From: Flavobacterium terrae | GTDB taxonomy: Bacteria > Bacteroidota > Bacteroidia > Flavobacteriales > Flavobacteriaceae | Assembly: GCF_900142035.1 (NCBI RefSeq) | Contig: NZ_FQZI01000001.1 | Coordinates: forward strand, 186,001-250,000 | DNA: 64,000 nucleotides | Reading direction: 5' to 3' | Shown here: piece by piece, positions 48,531-57,891 of the stretch | How positions within the stretch are numbered: position 1 is the stretch's first letter | How the letters are laid out: each line of letters starts with the position of its first letter | Notes under the pieces: model-generated | What the model saw: the letters and a program-made list of their open reading frames with translations, nothing else | What the model was told of the DNA's origin: nothing | Database searches by the model: none | Program-made: the position numbers and the translations under genes

Positions 48531-50792
48531 TTAATTTAAAAAGTAGCGTAAACCAATAAAACTTCGAATTCCTTGATTTGGCCCATAAACATACGATGGA
48601 TCAAATGTTAAACCATATGGATTTTCAGGTGTCACTTGTGCATTTCCGTTAGAATCAAACTGAACATTTTCATCAAATGGATCATGAGAACGAGCAATAA
48701 TAAAAGGATTGCCTTTGTTAGGCGTCCAATTTAAAAGATTTTTGACACCAAAATAAACCTCACAGTTTTTAATTTTTGAAATAGTAAACTGAATGTTTTG
48801 AACACTATAGGTTGATGAATATTGTTTTCTTGGATCAAGATTTCCCAATAATGGAAGTTTCATGGGGCCATATAAATTTCCTGTATAATCAATTGATAAA
48901 AACCATTTTGGAATAGAATATGAAATAGACCACGTTCCTGAGAAATTTTCGGTTAAAACCTGTTTGGTTTTTATTTGGTTTTCGGTTTTAGAAACATCTA
49001 AATAACTCGCACCAAGTGTTGCTTTTATTCCATTCCCTAAAATTACATCTATGTTTGCACTTATTCCTTTAGAAACTGCAAATCCATCAAGATTTTTGTA
49101 TATAATTTGGTTTGGATTTGTGTCATAATCAGGAAGAATTGAATTAGTAAAATAAGTATACCAAGCTGTAGTTTCAACTCCAATAAAACTTCCGTCGTTA
49201 AGATAGAATTTCTTTAAAAAATTCAGATTAGCATTATAAGAACGCTCCGGTTTTAAGTCTTCTAAAACCATCACATCGCGAGAACCTGTCAAAGCAGCAT
49301 GCTCTTCGGTAAATAAATTAACCACCCTAAAACCAGTACCTGTATTAAATCTGAAAATGCTTTTGTCATTTACTTTCCATTTATAAGCTAAACGAGGAGT
49401 AAAAATATTCCCGTGAGCATTGTTGTAATCGTAACGTGCTCCTAAAAGTAAACTATGTTTCTCTGCCAAATGCATTTCATCTTGAACAAATAAACTTGGA
49501 ATCCATGTTATATCCTCATTTACTGTTGCAGGTGTATTATCGTCATATAATTGATAACGTATCGCAGTTCCAAAAAGAAAATCATGACTTTTAATTTTTT
49601 TATCCCAAGTTAACTGACCAAAACCTATTTTTTGTTTTGCCAAATATGGCGTGTTCCCATAAACTGAATTCTGATCATGATTAGTATATGAAAAAGAAGC
49701 TAATAGTTTTTCTTTTACAGGAAGCTCATAAGCTCCTAACACTTCGTAACGACTTGTATAAATACTTTCCCCATAGACCTCTGATCCGCCACGATAGCTT
49801 TTATTCCATTGCATTTCACCTCCCCATCGATCTTCATAAAAATAGCGTCCAGCCATAGAAAATAACTTTTTACTTTTTCTGTTGAAATTCCATTTTTGAA
49901 AAACAGAAATTCTATCCTGAAGTGTTACATCTGTGAAATTATCATCATTGTTATCTATAGGATTCGAGTAATTGAAATAGTTTATCCCAGTTAATACCGA
50001 AGCAGTGTTACCAAGATTGGTTTTGACTCCTAAATCTAAATTGGCTTCCCCCCAACCCGTAGAAAATCCATCTACCGAAAAAGCGGGAGCATTTTTAGGG
50101 TTTTTAGTAATGATATTAATTAATCCGCCAACTGCTTCACTTCCATATAATGAAGATGCTGGTCCTTTAACTACTTCTATTCTTTCCAATAACGAATTTG
50201 GTATACCAGAAAGCCCGTAAACAGTAGAAAGTCCGCTAACAATAGGCATACCATCAATAAGAACCAAAGTATATGGTCCTTCTAATCCATTAATATGTAT
50301 ATCTCCTGTATTGCAAACATTACAATTTAACTGAGGTCGCACTCCGTTTACATTTTGAAGTGCTTCAAAAATATTTGAAGTTGGATTTTTTTTGAAAAAA
50401 GTAGGCTTAAATACTTCGACAGGTACAGCGCTTTCTAAGCGACTTACCGGCTTGAGTGTACCAGTAACTACCACTTCTTCAAGATCTTTTTGTGAGCTTT
50501 TCGCTGGAATTAATTCAAAATTTACTATTACTTCTGTTGTGTCTTTAACAGTAGTTCTTTTTTTCTGAGTTTGAAATCCTTCAAACATAACTACAACCTC
50601 ATGATTCCCTGTATTTACCTTTTCAAAGTAGTAATTGCCATCTATGTCCGTTTTGGTTTTAATTGTTTTATCAAGAGTTACTTCAACATTATCAAAAGAA
50701 ATTCCATCAGAAGAAATAGTTCCTTTAATATTAGTTTGCGCATTTAAAAAGTTACAAAGACAGACGATTGCAACTAGGATTAATTTTTTCAC
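48531..50792 (-). CDS. TonB-dependent receptor, probably for a metal or metal complex
   Basis: 753 residues from GTG at 50792 (MKKLILVAIVCLCNFLNAQ is a proper signal peptide); the frame extends to a TTG at 50831 but that lies inside the promoter. Carboxypeptidase-like domain (about 20-95), plug (about 105-235) with the Cys pair LNCNVCNTGDIHINGLEGPY and IDGMPIVSGLSTVYGLSG, then a barrel. The plug motif is common to Bacteroidota receptors for iron or other metals. It is divergent from the NRAMP/MntR genes and a palindrome overlaps both promoters, so regulation by metal is likely. Confidence 0.85.
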   Translation of the reverse strand: MKKLILVAIVCLCNFLNAQTNIKGTISSDGISFDNVEVTLDKTIKTKTDIDGNYYFEKVNTGNHEVVVMFEGFQTQKKRTTVKDTTEVIVNFELIPAKSSQKDLEEVVVTGTLKPVSRLESAVPVEVFKPTFFKKNPTSNIFEALQNVNGVRPQLNCNVCNTGDIHINGLEGPYTLVLIDGMPIVSGLSTVYGLSGIPNSLLERIEVVKGPASSLYGSEAVGGLINIITKNPKNAPAFSVDGFSTGWGEANLDLGVKTNLGNTASVLTGINYFNYSNPIDNNDDNFTDVTLQDRISVFQKWNFNRKSKKLFSMAGRYFYEDRWGGEMQWNKSYRGGSEVYGESIYTSRYEVLGAYELPVKEKLLASFSYTNHDQNSVYGNTPYLAKQKIGFGQLTWDKKIKSHDFLFGTAIRYQLYDDNTPATVNEDITWIPSLFVQDEMHLAEKHSLLLGARYDYNNAHGNIFTPRLAYKWKVNDKSIFRFNTGTGFRVVNLFTEEHAALTGSRDVMVLEDLKPERSYNANLNFLKKFYLNDGSFIGVETTAWYTYFTNSILPDYDTNPNQIIYKNLDGFAVSKGISANIDVILGNGIKATLGASYLDVSKTENQIKTKQVLTENFSGTWSISYSIPKWFLSIDYTGNLYGPMKLPLLGNLDPRKQYSSTYSVQNIQFTISKIKNCEVYFGVKNLLNWTPNKGNPFIIARSHDPFDENVQFDSNGNAQVTPENPYGLTFDPSYVYGPNQGIRSFIGLRYFLN

Positions 50793-50828
50793 AATTGTGA
50801 TTTTTATATATTTAAATAAATTTTTAGA

Positions 50829-50859
50829 CAAAGCTAAAAATTAAATTTTAGTAAGCAAA
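50829..50859 (-). promoter_or_regulatory. Promoter of the metal TonB receptor
   Basis: Minus strand: -33 TTTG (50859-50856), exactly 19 bases, then -7 TAGCTTTG (50836-50829). A near-ideal Bacteroidota promoter, 37 bases before the GTG start. Confidence 0.75.
50834..50851. promoter_or_regulatory. Candidate DtxR/MntR operator
   Basis: CTAAAA-N6-TTTTAG palindrome (18 bases). It overlaps the -7 and spacer of the receptor promoter and the -33 region of the mntH promoter. The flanks carry further near-symmetric TTAGACAAA (50824-50832) and TTTGTCTTAA (50873-50882). Confidence 0.55.
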
Positions 50860-50876
50860 TATTTTAATTAAATTTG
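50846..50876 (+). promoter_or_regulatory. Promoter of the NRAMP gene
   Basis: -7 TAAATTTG at 50869-50876, 22 bases before the ATG. The -33 position (50846-50849) reads TTTT, a weak fit that sits inside the palindrome. Confidence 0.5.
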
Positions 50877-50897
50877 TCTTAATCAATTACTATAGAA

Positions 50898-52769
50898 ATG
50901 AGTAAGTCATTAGAAGAAGTTCACGAATCTGTTTCGACACAAAATAAAACATCAATATTTAGAAAAATATTAGCCTTTTTTGGCCCTGCGTACTTAATAA
51001 GCGTGGGTTATATGGATCCAGGAAACTGGGCAACAGACTTAGCCGGTGGTAGCCAATTTGGTTATGCTTTAATATGGGTTTTATTAATGAGCAACATCAT
51101 GGCTTTGCTTTTACAGAGCTTAAGTGCTCGTTTGGGAATTGTGACACAGCGTGATTTAGCCCAAGCTTCACGAGAAACCTATTCAAAATTTATAAACTAC
51201 ATTTTATATTTTTTAGCCGAAATTGCTATTGCAGCTTGTGACTTGGCCGAAGTTTTAGGAATGGCAATAGGGTTAAATTTATTGTTTGATATTTCACTTA
51301 TTAATGGAGTATTGATTACTGTTTTAGACACTTTCTTATTATTATTTCTCATTAATAAAGGGATTCGAAAAATGGAAGCGTTTATTATTGCTTTGGTCGC
51401 TATCATAGGTTTCTCCTTTGTATTTGAGATGATATTTGCTCAGCCAGAAGTAGGTAAAATAATCTCTGGACTAGTTCCTTCGCTGCCAAATGATACTGCT
51501 TTGTATATAGCCATTGGAATTATTGGAGCTACCGTTATGCCGCACAACTTATACTTGCATTCTTCTTTGGTTCAAACTAGAAAATTTGACAGAAGTAAAG
51601 GCGGAATCAAACAAGCTCTGAAATACAATTTCATAGATTCGACCATAGCGTTAAACTTAGCTTTCTTTGTAAATGCTGCTATTTTAATTTTAGCCGCGGC
51701 AACGTTTCATAAAAATGGTTATTTTGAAGTAGCCGAAATACAAGACGCACATCAATTACTAGCTCCCTTATTAGGAACAAAATGGGCGCCTATTTTATTT
51801 GCCGTAGCCTTAATTGCTGCTGGACAAAGCTCTACCATTACAGGGACTTTAGCTGGACAAATTATAATGGAAGGGTATCTTAATTTACGAATCCAACCTT
51901 GGGTAAGACGTATTTTAACTCGTTTAATAGCCATAGTTCCTGCTGTAATAGTTATTTCAATTTTTGGTGAAGAAGTAACTGGCAAGCTCCTTATATTAAG
52001 CCAAGTGATTTTAAGTTTACAATTAGGATTTGCTATCATACCTTTAATTCATTTTGTAAGTGATAAATCAAAAATGAAGGGATTTCACATTAGTAAACCC
52101 ACACAAATTGCTGCTTGGATTATTGCACTAATCATTGTGTCATTAAATGCCAAGTTAGTATTCTCTGAAATCGTTGGTTTGTTAGAATCTTCAGAAAATC
52201 CAACGATACTTTGGTTTACCGTAATCCCTTTAGCAATTGGCTTTTTACTATTACTACTATATATCGTTTTTAAACCTTTTATTTCGAAGGCAAAACCTAA
52301 TATCTTGAATCATTCTCCTCACAATCTAAAATTAAAATTCACAACATCTGAAGTACATACAAAAAAAGATATTGCCATTCTAGTTGATTTCTCCAATGCA
52401 GATGAAGCTGCAATTAACCATGCATTTGAATTAGGCGGAAAAGAAGCTAAGTACTCATTAATTCATATAGTAGAAACTGTAGGTGCTATGATGTATGGAG
52501 AGAATATTGAAGATTGTGAAACTACCATTGATGAAAAATTATTAAAAGAATACGAACAAATTTTGTCTGAGAAAGGCTTTAATGTAGTAAGTATTTTAGG
52601 CTATGGGAAACCAGGAAAATCAATACCAAAAATTATCAACGAAGGAACTTATGATATTTTAGTTATGGGAACCCACGGTCATACCGGACTAAGTGATTTG
52701 CTTTTTGGAACTACAGTTGATAAATTGCGTCATCAAATTTTCATTCCATTATTTATCGTAAAAAATTAA
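50898..52769 (+). CDS. mntH: NRAMP Mn2+/Fe2+ transporter with C-terminal universal-stress domain
   Basis: 623 residues. Residues 25-465 are an NRAMP transporter with about 11 helices; the metal motif of helix 1 is DPGN (40-43) and of helix 6 is MPHN (214-217), both intact. About residues 485-623 form a UspA-like domain (DIAILVDFSNADEAAINHAFELG at its start) with the ATP motif G-2x-G-9x-G-T in GTHGHTGLSDLLFGTT. NRAMP proteins usually end near 410-450 residues, so the Usp domain is an added cytoplasmic regulatory part; binding of ATP is inferred. The DtxR-family gene starts 3 bases later. Confidence 0.9.
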   Translation: MSKSLEEVHESVSTQNKTSIFRKILAFFGPAYLISVGYMDPGNWATDLAGGSQFGYALIWVLLMSNIMALLLQSLSARLGIVTQRDLAQASRETYSKFINYILYFLAEIAIAACDLAEVLGMAIGLNLLFDISLINGVLITVLDTFLLLFLINKGIRKMEAFIIALVAIIGFSFVFEMIFAQPEVGKIISGLVPSLPNDTALYIAIGIIGATVMPHNLYLHSSLVQTRKFDRSKGGIKQALKYNFIDSTIALNLAFFVNAAILILAAATFHKNGYFEVAEIQDAHQLLAPLLGTKWAPILFAVALIAAGQSSTITGTLAGQIIMEGYLNLRIQPWVRRILTRLIAIVPAVIVISIFGEEVTGKLLILSQVILSLQLGFAIIPLIHFVSDKSKMKGFHISKPTQIAAWIIALIIVSLNAKLVFSEIVGLLESSENPTILWFTVIPLAIGFLLLLLYIVFKPFISKAKPNILNHSPHNLKLKFTTSEVHTKKDIAILVDFSNADEAAINHAFELGGKEAKYSLIHIVETVGAMMYGENIEDCETTIDEKLLKEYEQILSEKGFNVVSILGYGKPGKSIPKIINEGTYDILVMGTHGHTGLSDLLFGTTVDKLRHQIFIPLFIVKN

Positions 52770-53978: not shown

Positions 53979-54804
53979 TTAGAAGTAAATTCCTCCACCA
54001 AATTTAGTGAACTTGTATGATGGTGACCCAATTTTAACATAATCATAACCCAAAGAAAGAAAACATCTTTTAATGTGATATCTCCCCTTAACTTCAAATT
54101 CGTTTACAGATTTGTTATTAATAGCGCCCCCATTTAGCACTTCCTGAAAACGAACATTGTTTGATTGGAAAAACTTCGGCATTTAAACCAAAACTCATGC
54201 CTGCTTTTTTAACTTCATTTGCCACATAAGTTGCTCCAAGAGTCCAACCGAAATTGAATTTATTCATTCGGATTCTATCATATCCAAAATTAAAATAGAA
54301 TAAAGACAAGCTACTAGAATTAAAATTTCTTCTTTCTTCTAATTGATGATAGTCTGCCTGAAAATACAAGTATTGAAATGGCCTTATCTTTACTTCCAAA
54401 TAATTTCCAAATAACTCCTTACTATTGAACAAGTAACTCTCCTCAACATCTATCCTAAATCTATTTTTTTTCTTTTCTATTCCATCTAAAGTATCTGCAT
54501 TTTCAAAATTACCTGACTTAGCATCATAAAAAGGATATGGGGTTAACCGACTACTTAAATGTGATTCATTTTCATAATTTCCAAAAAAAGCCCAACCAAT
54601 TGCACCTATAATAGGTTTACCAAAAATTTGCCAAAAAAGACTAGGTTCATTGTTTTGACTTTTCTTATAATTGGTTTGAGCTTGAAATTTAACACCTTCT
54701 TTTTCTGTAAGCTCGCGCTTTGATATGTCAATTTTGGTTTGTCCAAATGTTGTAATAGTAATAAAAAAAGTAAAAAGAAGTAGAAGTGTAAATCTTTCTT
54801 TCAT
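53979..54804 (-). pseudogene. Outer-membrane beta-barrel gene of the feo operon, frameshifted
   Basis: The first frame (ATG 54804) has a signal peptide (ending TTFGQ), then alternating beta-strands (FRIDVEESYLF, YLEVKIRPFQYLYFQADYH, SLFYFNFGYDRIRMNKF) and stops at 54118 after AKWGRY. A second frame continues without a break through EFEVKGRYHIKRCFLSLGYDYVKIG and ends at 53979 with KFGGGIYF, a typical last barrel strand. Reading one G fewer in the run of five (54127-54131) restores AKWGAINNKSVN and one protein of about 274 residues. Either a sequencing error, a real mutation or a slippage site. Its start shares a base with the feoB stop. Confidence 0.75.
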
Positions 54805-56906
54805 TATTTAAGAATCTGGAAAGCAATTAAACAAACCACATAGGCAAATCCGCTCATAAAGACCAATTGTACCATAGGCCATTGCCAAGAATTGGTTTCC
54901 TTTTTTGTTATTGCCAAAGTAGAAATACATTGCATCGCAAATGCATAAAATAATAATAAAGAAACACCAGTAGCAAAATTGAAGATTTTAGCTCCTGTTA
55001 CAGGGTGCACTTCAGCAGCCATTTTATTCTTAATTGTTGTTTCTTCATCAGAGTGACTACCAACACTATAAATAGTAGCCAATGTTCCCACAAAAACTTC
55101 ACGAGCCGCAAATGAACTTACAACAGCGATACCTATTTTCCAATCGTATCCCAAAGGTTTGATAACCGGTTCGATTGTTTTTCCGACAATTCCGATATAT
55201 GAATTTTCCAATTTGTATGATGCAACAAGATCTTCTTTTTCACCTGAAACAGTTTTGTTCTGCAATTGTGTTTCGATAATTTTATCAGCGTTGTGAAATG
55301 TTTCTGTAGGTCCGTGCGATCCTAAAAACCACAAAATAACAGATAAAGCTAAAATAATTTTTCCTGCTCCAAAAACAAAAGACTTGGTCTTTTCTATAAC
55401 ATTAATAGCAACGTTTTTAAACATTGGTACTTTGTATCCTGGCATTTCGACAACAAAGTAACTATTGGATTTTATCTTTAGAATTTTATTTAAAATATAA
55501 GCTGAAAAAATGGCCATCCCAAAACCTAACATATACAAAGTCATTAATGTTAAACCTTGCATATTGAATACTCCAAACAAACGTTTGTCTGGAATAATTA
55601 GTGAAATCAAAATAGCATATACAGGCAATCGAGCCGAACAAGTTGTGAATGGTGTTACTAAAATAGTAATTAATCTTTCTTTCCAGTTTTCTATATTACG
55701 TGCAGCCATAATTGCCGGAATAGCACAAGCAGTTCCTGAAATAAGAGGCACAACACTTTTTCCACTAAGACCAAAACGGCGCATGATTTTATCCATCAAA
55801 AACACTACGCGACTCATATAACCACTTTCTTCTAAAACAGAGATAAAAAGAAACAAGAAAGCAATTTGAGGAATAAAAATAACAATACCTCCTAATCCTG
55901 GAATTATACCTTCAGCAACTAAATCTGTCAAAATTCCCGTAGGCAAGTTTGCTTTAGCATATGAACTCAACGAGGCAAAACTAGTATCAATAAAATCCAT
56001 TGGAACACTTGACCAATCAAATATTGATTGGAAAATGAGCATTAAAATCCCAAAAAAGATTAAATAGCCGTAAACTTTATGCATTAAAATTCGATCTAGC
56101 CGACTTCTTAAATCTTTTGCCGAATTAATATCAACTGTCTGCCCTACTTTAAGCACCTCATTTATAAACTGGTACCTTTTTATGGTTTCTTTATGCTGTA
56201 GTCTTTTTAGATCTTCTTTTGACTTGGTGAAAGATGGATTGGGTAGTTCTTTTCGGTCTAGATTAACAAAATTGACATCTTGAGTTATAACCAACCAAAG
56301 TTTATATAGTAATTGATTTGGAAACGCTTTGCGTAAATTTCCAAAATAAACTGGATCAATCTCAGAAGCGTTTAAACAAGGTTCTGTTGGAATATTTCTA
56401 TAATTAACGATTAAATTCTTCAACTCGTCAATACCTTCATTTTTTCTAGAACTGATTAAAGCAATTTTGGTTTTCAGCATTTTTTCTAGATATGGAATAT
56501 CTAAAGTAATTCCTTTATAAGACATTCTATCCGCCATATTAATGACCAATATAGTGGGGATTTCTAAGTCTTTTATCTGGGTAAAAAGCAGTAAGTTTCT
56601 TTTAAGGTTTTCTACTTCAGTAACTACAATAGCTACATCTGGATAATCTTTATCATTTCTATTTAGAAGCAATTCTATAACCACATTCTCGTCTAGTGAA
56701 CTTGCATTTAAACTATATGTTCCAGGCAAATCGAGAATTGTAGCTTTAAGATTGGATGCTAATTTACAAACGCCCACTTTTTTCTCAACAGTAATACCAG
56801 GATAATTACCTACTTGTTGATTCAACCCCGTGAGCTGATTAAAAACAGATGTTTTACCAACATTGGGGTTTCCAATAAGTGCTATGTTAATATTCCCAAC
56901 TTTCAT
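54804..56906 (-). CDS. feoB: Ferrous iron transporter FeoB
   Basis: 700 residues. The N-terminal G domain has G1 GNPNVGKTSVFNQLTG (11-26), G3 DLPGTYSL and the switch YPGITVEKKVG. The membrane part carries the two Gate motifs: CARLPVYAILISLIIP with the nearby PLISGTACAIPAIMAARNIENW, and the later ASFAAREVFVGTLATIY. The C-terminal FeoC-like insert is absent. It imports Fe2+ in a GTP-dependent manner. The start overlaps the feoA stop by one base and the outer-membrane gene starts in its last base. Confidence 0.96.
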   Translation of the reverse strand: MKVGNINIALIGNPNVGKTSVFNQLTGLNQQVGNYPGITVEKKVGVCKLASNLKATILDLPGTYSLNASSLDENVVIELLLNRNDKDYPDVAIVVTEVENLKRNLLLFTQIKDLEIPTILVINMADRMSYKGITLDIPYLEKMLKTKIALISSRKNEGIDELKNLIVNYRNIPTEPCLNASEIDPVYFGNLRKAFPNQLLYKLWLVITQDVNFVNLDRKELPNPSFTKSKEDLKRLQHKETIKRYQFINEVLKVGQTVDINSAKDLRSRLDRILMHKVYGYLIFFGILMLIFQSIFDWSSVPMDFIDTSFASLSSYAKANLPTGILTDLVAEGIIPGLGGIVIFIPQIAFLFLFISVLEESGYMSRVVFLMDKIMRRFGLSGKSVVPLISGTACAIPAIMAARNIENWKERLITILVTPFTTCSARLPVYAILISLIIPDKRLFGVFNMQGLTLMTLYMLGFGMAIFSAYILNKILKIKSNSYFVVEMPGYKVPMFKNVAINVIEKTKSFVFGAGKIILALSVILWFLGSHGPTETFHNADKIIETQLQNKTVSGEKEDLVASYKLENSYIGIVGKTIEPVIKPLGYDWKIGIAVVSSFAAREVFVGTLATIYSVGSHSDEETTIKNKMAAEVHPVTGAKIFNFATGVSLLLFYAFAMQCISTLAITKKETNSWQWPMVQLVFMSGFAYVVCLIAFQILK

Positions 56907-57145
56907 TATTTACTCTCGTTAGGAATTTGAACTGTAATAGCGCGTGCAGTTTCTAATCGAATTGCTAGGTATGAATCGTTTACATTTAAATATAAGGGAT
57001 CTCCAAAAGGAGCTACTTGTAGTATTTGCACTTCATTTCCGGGTAAGCATCCCATTTCCAATAATTTTAAAGGAACCAAATCAATATTGAATTCTTGAAT
57101 AATTCCTTTTTGTCCTATTTGCAATTGTGCTAAGTTAATATCCAC
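56906..57145 (-). CDS. feoA: FeoA-family protein
   Basis: The 79-residue SH3-like protein starts with GTG at 57145 (MDINLAQLQIGQKGIIQEF). It has the FeoA pattern LLEMGCLPGNEVQILQVAPFGDPLYLNVNDSYLAIRLETA. It supports FeoB activity. First gene of the operon. Confidence 0.93.
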   Translation of the reverse strand: MDINLAQLQIGQKGIIQEFNIDLVPLKLLEMGCLPGNEVQILQVAPFGDPLYLNVNDSYLAIRLETARAITVQIPNESK

Positions 57146-57148
57146 TTA

Positions 57149-57176
57149 TTTAGATTCAGTTTAGATTGCAAAAGTA
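57149..57176 (-). promoter_or_regulatory. Promoter and tandem repeat upstream of feoA
   Basis: Minus -7 TACTTTTG at 57176-57169. The -33 position reads TTTAG rather than TTTG (57191-57197 region). Between the -7 and the start TTTAGATT repeats at 57149-57156 and 57160-57167, 11 bases apart, one helical turn. The TTTAG core resembles the half-sites of the mntH palindrome, so the same repressor may bind here. Confidence 0.45.
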
Positions 57177-57222
57177 CTAATTAAAATCATTCTAAATATG
57201 ATAAATATCAATCTTCAAACAA

Positions 57223-57891
57223 TTATTCTTTTTCTGATAAATATTTGATGTCTTCTAAAAGCTTTTCAACTTCTTCACGCTTTGTGCCATCGTAGAAACC
57301 TCTAACCCTTCTTTTTTTGTCTATTAAAACAAAGTTTTCGGTATGTACCATATCATACATTTCTTCTGGTTTCCCAGTTTTTACTGCTAGATAAGATTTT
57401 CTAGCAATGTAATAAATGTCTTTTTTATCACCAGTTACCAGGTTCCATTTCGCGTCAATTACACCTTTCCTTTTTGCATAGGCTTTTAAAACAGGAACAC
57501 TATCAATATCAGGAGTAACAGAATGAGATAGCAACATAATTTCGGGATTATCTTTTATTTGGTCTTGTAACCAAACCATATTGTCTGCCATTATAGGGCA
57601 AATCGAAGGACAAGTAGTAAAGAAAAAATCTGCCACATAAATTTTTCCTTCATAATCTTTCTGAGTAATCGTTTTACCGTTTTGGTTTGTAAAAGAAAAA
57701 TCTGAAATAAAATGTTCGTTGGCTATATGCTGAATAGTGGTATCTACCAATTCTGGATTTACCATAGAAGGAGTGTAAATTGGTAATGACTTAGCAGGTT
57801 TTAAAACAAAATAAAATAACGTTATTATGACTACAGACAAAATAGACAAGACAACTAATAATGTTTTGAATCTCTTTAAGAAATCAATCAT
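57223..57891 (-). CDS. SCO1/SenC-family copper chaperone-like protein
   Basis: 222 residues with one N-terminal membrane helix (about 11-30) and a thioredoxin-fold domain. The metal motif CPSICP has C94 and C98, with the distal His in MVHTENFVLID (H183). SCO proteins help to load copper in cytochrome oxidase. It lies 77 bases upstream of feoA in the same direction. Confidence 0.9.
   Translation of the reverse strand: MIDFLKRFKTLLVVLSILSVVIITLFYFVLKPAKSLPIYTPSMVNPELVDTTIQHIANEHFISDFSFTNQNGKTITQKDYEGKIYVADFFFTTCPSICPIMADNMVWLQDQIKDNPEIMLLSHSVTPDIDSVPVLKAYAKRKGVIDAKWNLVTGDKKDIYYIARKSYLAVKTGKPEEMYDMVHTENFVLIDKKRRVRGFYDGTKREEVEKLLEDIKYLSEKE

Follow-up and report, generated by a model that had tools for sequence, protein, structure and literature searches.

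The gap between the receptor gene and mntH

The window analysed here is a stretch of 64,000 nucleotides from Flavobacterium terrae. It contains a gap that is bordered by a minus-strand TonB-dependent receptor gene and by plus-strand mntH, with a gene for a DtxR-family regulator 3 nt downstream of mntH (Table 1). A previous sequence-only reading had described this gap and a DtxR/MntR gene cotranscribed with mntH. The receptor start was set at a GTG codon because the N-termini of the orthologs point there, and the longest receptor open reading frame opens with a TTG codon at 50831, inside the operator proposed below. The promoter parts that had been named on the two strands are present in the letters: TTTG, 19 nt and TAGCTTTG on the minus strand and the -7 box TAAATTTG on the plus strand. 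The predicted minus-strand box TAGCTTTG falls wholly within the proposed operator.

In F. psychrophilum, the sigma-A -7 consensus is given as TAnnTTTG (PMC9723704). In the orthologous gaps, a TATATTTG-like box can be seen by eye at about the place of the mntH -7 box, some 20-30 bp upstream of the start codon. A TTTG at a distance of 17-21 nt accompanies 12 of 41 receptor-side promoters and is missing from the other 29; for the shorter TTG, shuffles give an expectation of 2.9.

Table 1. Coordinates of the features in and around the gap
Feature	Position	Strand	Remarks
TonB-dependent receptor	48531..50792	-	GTG start at 50792 from orthologous N-termini
Proposed operator TTTTTAG-ACAAAG-CTAAAAA	50821..50840	.	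core TTTAG-N6-CTAAA at 50823-50838; within inverted repeat I2
Receptor promoter -7 box TAGCTTTG	50829..50836	-	window letters; predicted; within operator
Earlier-noted palindrome CTAAAA-ATTAAA-TTTTAG	50834..50851	.	left arm belongs to operator, right arm unconserved
Receptor promoter -33 TTTG	50856..50859	-	window letters; 19 nt from -7 box
mntH -7 box TAAATTTG	50869..50876	+	window letters; predicted
mntH, Nramp transporter with C-terminal Usp domain	50898..52769	+	domain profiles
DtxR/MntR-type regulator, 217 aa	52773..53426	+	domain profiles

The genome has a single PF02742 match, the regulator, which combines the Fe_dep_repress helix-turn-helix domain with the Fe_dep_repr_C metal and dimer domain, both above the Pfam gathering scores, and a FeoA domain. 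Its sequence matches in the PDB include SloR, ScaR, IdeR and DtxR, the best being 5zr4, which we take to be a Deinococcus DtxR-type protein, and the second best SloR (5cvi). As the cut-offs of the NCBIfam MntR models were not reached (153.1 vs 350 bits for NF047407, 63.5 vs 138 for NF003025 and 44.5 vs 153 for NF008273), the protein is named MntR-like only. Helix-turn-helix residues 37-41 are invariant in 80 of 80 in-group regulators, and H77, E81, H96, E103, H104, D124 and H126 are invariant in all 125 regulators, with E100 in 123 of them; the metal ligands may be found among these conserved histidines, glutamates and aspartate. Where SloR and ScaR have Asp, at residue 7, 119 of 122 regulators have Asn.

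The window also carries feoAB, with FeoB at 54804-56906 on the minus strand. It has no DtxR-type site, and its promoter was rejected as a target with a best PWM score of -3.8; the upstream DNA (57100-57300) holds ATTTAGAATGATTTTAAT, which we take to be Fur-box-like in look. In many other genomes (e.g. L031, L044, L051, L150 and L166) a codirectional gene ending NFTLSGLCPNC... is located upstream of mntH, and by eye it looks like a member of the Fur family. One contig titled Rhizobium sp. bin (L054), whose mntH is 81% identical to that of the window, is probably a mislabelled Flavobacterium contig.

Register and conservation of the palindrome

The sequence-only reading had proposed CTAAAA-N6-TTTTAG as the operator consensus. 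This palindrome does occur exactly in the gap and is just mildly unusual by chance, with a mean of 0.08 exact matches per shuffled window and at least one match in 7 of 100 shuffles. In the genome it was found at 11 places vs 8 for the backward control, which is hardly an enrichment. When operator-bearing gaps only are counted, it stands in register once among the 75 on the mntH side, in the window itself, and never among the 30 from genomes without a close mntH or the 48 of the outgroup. Lack of conservation in orthologous gaps was what that reading had named as speaking against its proposal, and it does so for this consensus. At the place of the right arm TTTTAG, the orthologs show, by eye, the T-rich -33 region of mntH. 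The short form CTAA-N10-TTAG is present in 12 of 37 mntH-first loci and in 18 of 59 genus gaps, but is in register with the operator in the window alone; most of the other matches we read as a CTAA at -13 (24 of 75 loci) that lies within the 3' end of a codirectional coding sequence. A further variant, CTAA-N8-TTAG, occurs in 27 of 46 regulator-first loci and equals the third arm of the outgroup described below.

The conserved element is TTTTTAG-N6-CTAAAAA. It overlaps the earlier palindrome, has one arm in common with it, and is centered about 12 bp to its left, on the receptor -7 box. The mean number of such palindromes per shuffled window is 0.01. The gap keeps its standing as the place of the best candidate operator in the window, but it is this overlapping element, and not the palindrome named before, that has the top PWM score (23.8 vs 15.3 for the next site). 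Comparison makes it very likely that the operator of the linked DtxR/MntR-type regulator lies in the gap, in a position to serve both divergent genes, and that the gap offers a testable consensus, as had been claimed, whereas the consensus itself had to be replaced.

The strict pattern WTTTAGNYNNRNCTAAAW, which was set only after the sites had been seen, matches the genome at four places vs none in the control, two of them intergenic (one in this gap, the other ahead of the DHOR operon, see below) and two within coding sequence. Looser patterns fared worse: TTTAG-N6-CTAAA was found at 60 places vs 30 in the control, TTAGNYWWRNCTAA at 23 vs 18, and TTTAGNYWWRNCTAAA, across 101 genomes, was frequently found fewer times than its control. 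As these looser motifs are common and, when counted genome-wide, exceed their backward controls slightly or not at all, sequence alone does not predict sites.

A strong mntH match was found in 65 genomes of the genus. Upstream DNA was obtained for 64 of them, one locus at a contig end being omitted, and the removal of one cut locus left 63. The site was counted as present when TTAG-N6-CTAA lay no more than 150 bp from the beginning of the operon. It is present ahead of the operon in 58 of the 59 genomes that have both mntH and the regulator, compared with 0.25 of 59 in shuffled gaps; the exception (L038) is a regulator-bearing gap with a one-mismatch site. In the four mntH genomes without a regulator match, the site is absent from three, with best PWM scores of -5.0 or lower, and degenerate in the fourth, with a score of 15.2 compared with a median of 23.6 for the 59. 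The association of site and regulator has a Fisher p of 4e-4, uncorrected for kinship. The four genomes are drafts that are 88 to 95% complete and may be kin, and since three of them are at most 94% complete, the missing regulator may be an assembly gap. Loss of the site together with the regulator is nevertheless in the direction that an operator would predict, with four possibly related genomes behind it.

The site also follows the regulator where mntH is not close. There are 32 such genomes in the genus, or 31 after the removal of a cut one, and the site precedes the regulator in 30 of them, the regulator of L254 having no site upstream; in 18 of the 31, a divergent TonB receptor match is right beside the regulator. 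In other genera of the family, the site was found ahead of the regulator in 28 of 28 genomes, these being the 28 best-matching of 134 positive genomes, each a separate genus, and mntH was seen within the flank of about 1.5 kb in three of the 28. The regulator itself is present in 136 of 199 genomes of the family Flavobacteriaceae.

A set of 110 loci from the genus and the outgroup, in which some species are probably present twice and five cut or differently arranged loci are uncounted, gave TTAG-N6-CTAA in 37 of 37 mntH-regulator loci, in 43 of 46 regulator-mntH loci and in 11 of 22 loci with no regulator nearby. Spacers of 3, 4, 5, 7, 8, 9 or 10 nt between the same arms gave 0 of 37, 0 of 46 and, in the 22 loci without a nearby regulator, a single match (3 nt). 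In the outgroup (L063-L125), 22 of the 48 operator-bearing loci contain a third TTAG half-site, whose distance of 22 bp to the first arm corresponds to two helical turns, and the operators there may be bound by two dimers.

Within the genus, the site usually contains what is predicted to be the -7 box of the divergent gene. Among genus-side loci, a minus-strand TAnnTTTG was found in the core in 28 of 38 cases where the neighboring gene is divergent vs 0 of 31 where it is codirectional, with six loci unassigned. A second set, more closely defined and sharing some loci with the first, gave a CAAANNTA core in 41 of 50 cases where a divergent open reading frame is close by vs 0 of 21 where none is, both counts being inflated by shared descent. 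Correction for kinship left only five independent pairs, of which 3.7 on average agreed and none was contrary (median p 0.125). The stricter notion that the box always lies inside the operator is weakened outside the genus, where the exact box was found in 4 of 17 receptor-linked loci. In the uncut regulator-mntH loci of the outgroup, the -7 box inside the site faces that operon in 15 of 39.

The site at other genes

Where the receptor gene is displaced by 1-3.3 kb from mntH, it has a TTTAG-N6-CTAAA of its own at its start in 9 of 9 named Flavobacterium loci, with TAnnTTTG inside in eight, although the nine may be mostly one lineage. The tenth non-adjacent receptor, that of a Sphingobacterium bin, has no site. 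Among the matches listed for other genomes, 20 places were picked by core quality, and 12 of them are at receptor or regulator starts, six are in open reading frames and two are near no gene, with the receptors recognized by eye.

In some loci of the genus, the divergent gene encodes a beta-barrel protein, and the one tested matched Phenol_MetA_deg (PF13557). In one genome of the genus, the divergent partner is an operon that encodes a di-haem oxidoreductase (DHOR), a Rieske protein and a porin-like protein, and the second intergenic site in the genome of the window precedes, by 22 bp, a DHOR (di-haem cytochrome)-Rieske-porin operon of like make. The site is present in 10 of 10 close DHOR loci (at least 63% identity), 31-41 bp upstream and with a plus-strand TAnnTTTG inside; these loci come from nine genomes, among them that of the window, and include one that shares the mntH operator and two that are nearly identical. 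More distant DHOR homologs have the site in 0 of 11 cases, and no more than 20 of the 101 genomes of the genus have a homolog of any kind.

The recurring operon of DHOR cytochrome, Rieske protein and porin-like protein (L195 4034-6906 and L269 1443-4329) shows signs of metal control. Its porin-like protein matches BBP2 below the cut-off in one case and no Pfam family in the other. The second operator lies in a metal-resistance-like stretch (L195 1-14073, contig C17:30300-44372 of G000), in which an RND efflux system and a metal P-type ATPase were recognized by eye. This stretch is 99.35% identical over 14.1 kb to L270, from a genome whose MntH is merely 70% identical, which probably reflects a recent transfer. 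A possible external lead for the DHOR operon comes from Bizionia argentinensis, in which cytochrome c, Rieske and TonB receptor genes are reported to fall together in an mliR mutant that has a low content of Fe, Mn and Zn, the cytochrome c and Rieske genes having neighbouring locus tags (PMC9478572).

Proposed mechanism, alternatives and known systems

Comparison of the genomes establishes that the site exists, is conserved, goes with the regulator, and recurs ahead of displaced receptors and of a second operon. We consider it highly probable that the linked DtxR/MntR-type regulator has the 20-bp palindrome as its operator, for the metal-dependent repression of the receptor, mntH and the regulator itself. 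The regulator, when loaded with Mn2+ and/or Fe2+, would bind the palindrome and cover the minus-strand -7 box; as this box is inside the site, the bound protein would block the receptor promoter by directly keeping sigma-A away from it. The site also adjoins the plus-strand -33 region of mntH and lies about 50 bp ahead of where transcription is expected to start, and RNA polymerase would thus be impeded at this promoter as well once a dimer is bound. A drop in metal would then release the receptor, mntH and the regulator together, and this joint release would couple uptake across the outer membrane to uptake across the inner one. Binding by the regulator, the identity of the metal, and repression rather than activation are the parts of this scheme that we infer.

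One could still hold that CTAAAA-N6-TTTTAG, which is exactly present in the gap, is the operator, or half of a three-arm TTTTAG-N6-CTAAAA-N6-TTTTAG bound by two dimers, as the third TTAG arm in 22 of 48 outgroup loci suggests that third half-sites may exist in the family. On the genus side, however, a third arm in the register of the window was found in 1 of 75 gaps, the window only, at 24 bp and not 22, and the palindrome is hardly enriched in the genome (11 vs 8); we regard this reading as very unlikely. The conserved TTTAG..CTAAA might also be nothing but promoter elements in an AT-rich gap, as the core often includes TAnnTTTG. Yet the arms are kept in the 31 codirectional loci that have no TAnnTTTG in the core, shuffled gaps yield the site in 0.25 of 59 cases, and the seven alternative spacings in 0 of 37 and 0 of 46, which leaves this explanation with hardly any credibility.

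Metal genes are often under the control of Fur as well, and the tie between the site and the DtxR-type protein is a comparative one, so another regulator, such as a Fur-family protein, might bind the palindrome. Such a protein would not be expected to have its site ahead of the gene of the DtxR-type regulator where mntH is not close (30 of 31, and 28 of 28 in other genera), nor to lose it, wholly or in part, where no regulator was found, and the shape of the site resembles the DtxR/IdeR consensus TTAGGNNNNCCTAA. This alternative is quite improbable. Importer genes are usually repressed by DtxR-type proteins, and both genes here look like importers; furthermore, the operator covers the receptor -7 box. 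Activation of one of the two genes through a real site is therefore unlikely, even though the position of the operator upstream of the mntH -33 region is open to it and the MntR of B. subtilis activates at exporter genes (PMC11275975).

The operator of the linked regulator is very likely real on the comparative evidence and had been mis-registered; it is ordinary in kind and useful in detail. The corrected 20-bp consensus replaces a wrong one and can be tested with a probe, and it provides a concrete candidate regulon for a regulator that is widespread in Flavobacteriaceae. As the candidate regulon would tie the TonB receptor and the DHOR-Rieske-porin operon to metal control, their function becomes directly testable. 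A more tentative idea, which we think somewhat less probable than its opposite, is that a composite element of repressor site and sigma-A -7 box defines a metal regulon of Flavobacteriaceae and sits at whichever outer-membrane module is in use, be it a TonB receptor, a MetA-like beta-barrel, or a mobile DHOR-Rieske-porin operon that would act as an envelope redox device of metal starvation and aid Mn/Fe uptake.

The kind of operator is known, and the regulon is apparently unreported. Among the titles and abstract beginnings of the matches listed in open-licence PMC, we found none that describes a DtxR/MntR operator from Bacteroidota. In the MntR module of Stenotrophomonas, boxes are predicted at mntH and at a TonB receptor-thioredoxin-fold locus; the box is 25 bp long, in contrast to the operator here, and the relevant parts of the source describe no operator common to the receptor and mntH/regulator (PMC13217887). 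DR2539 of Deinococcus radiodurans is a Mn(II)/Fe(II)-dependent mntH repressor that binds an inverted repeat, but its account, as far as it was available, pairs it with no TonB receptor (PMC3327659). SloR of Streptococcus mutans, a metal-dependent mntH repressor, binds a 6-6-6 SRE that is similar to the site in the window in that its arms and spacer are each 6 bp long, in that it overlaps promoter elements, and in its role in the control of mntH. It differs from that site in the AATTAA-like arms and in having several elements per promoter (PMC12096823).

DtxR/IdeR operators are described by a 19-bp TTAGGTTAGSCTAACCTAA and by a proposed 14-bp consensus TTAGGNNNNCCTAA, with TTAG-N6-CTAA arms at a spacing equal to that of the proposed operator, which reads TTAGACAAAGCTAA (PMC8464063). 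The arms and the spacing of the 14-bp form are thus found in the window, although the fifth position, G/C in TTAGGNNNNCCTAA, is mostly A/T here (A 0.65 and G 0.20 in 122 sites, both strands). The 19-bp two-dimer form was not found, as the base after CTAA is A in 95% of the 122 sites, whereas the consensus has C; in place of the outer CCTAA of the DtxR/IdeR sites (PMC8464063), the Flavobacterium sites have extended A/T flanks. Among the PDB sequence matches, IdeR and DtxR match the regulator over its first two domains. Unlike in the DtxR/IdeR systems as described in that source, the targets here are predicted to be a TonB receptor, mntH and a cytochrome operon.
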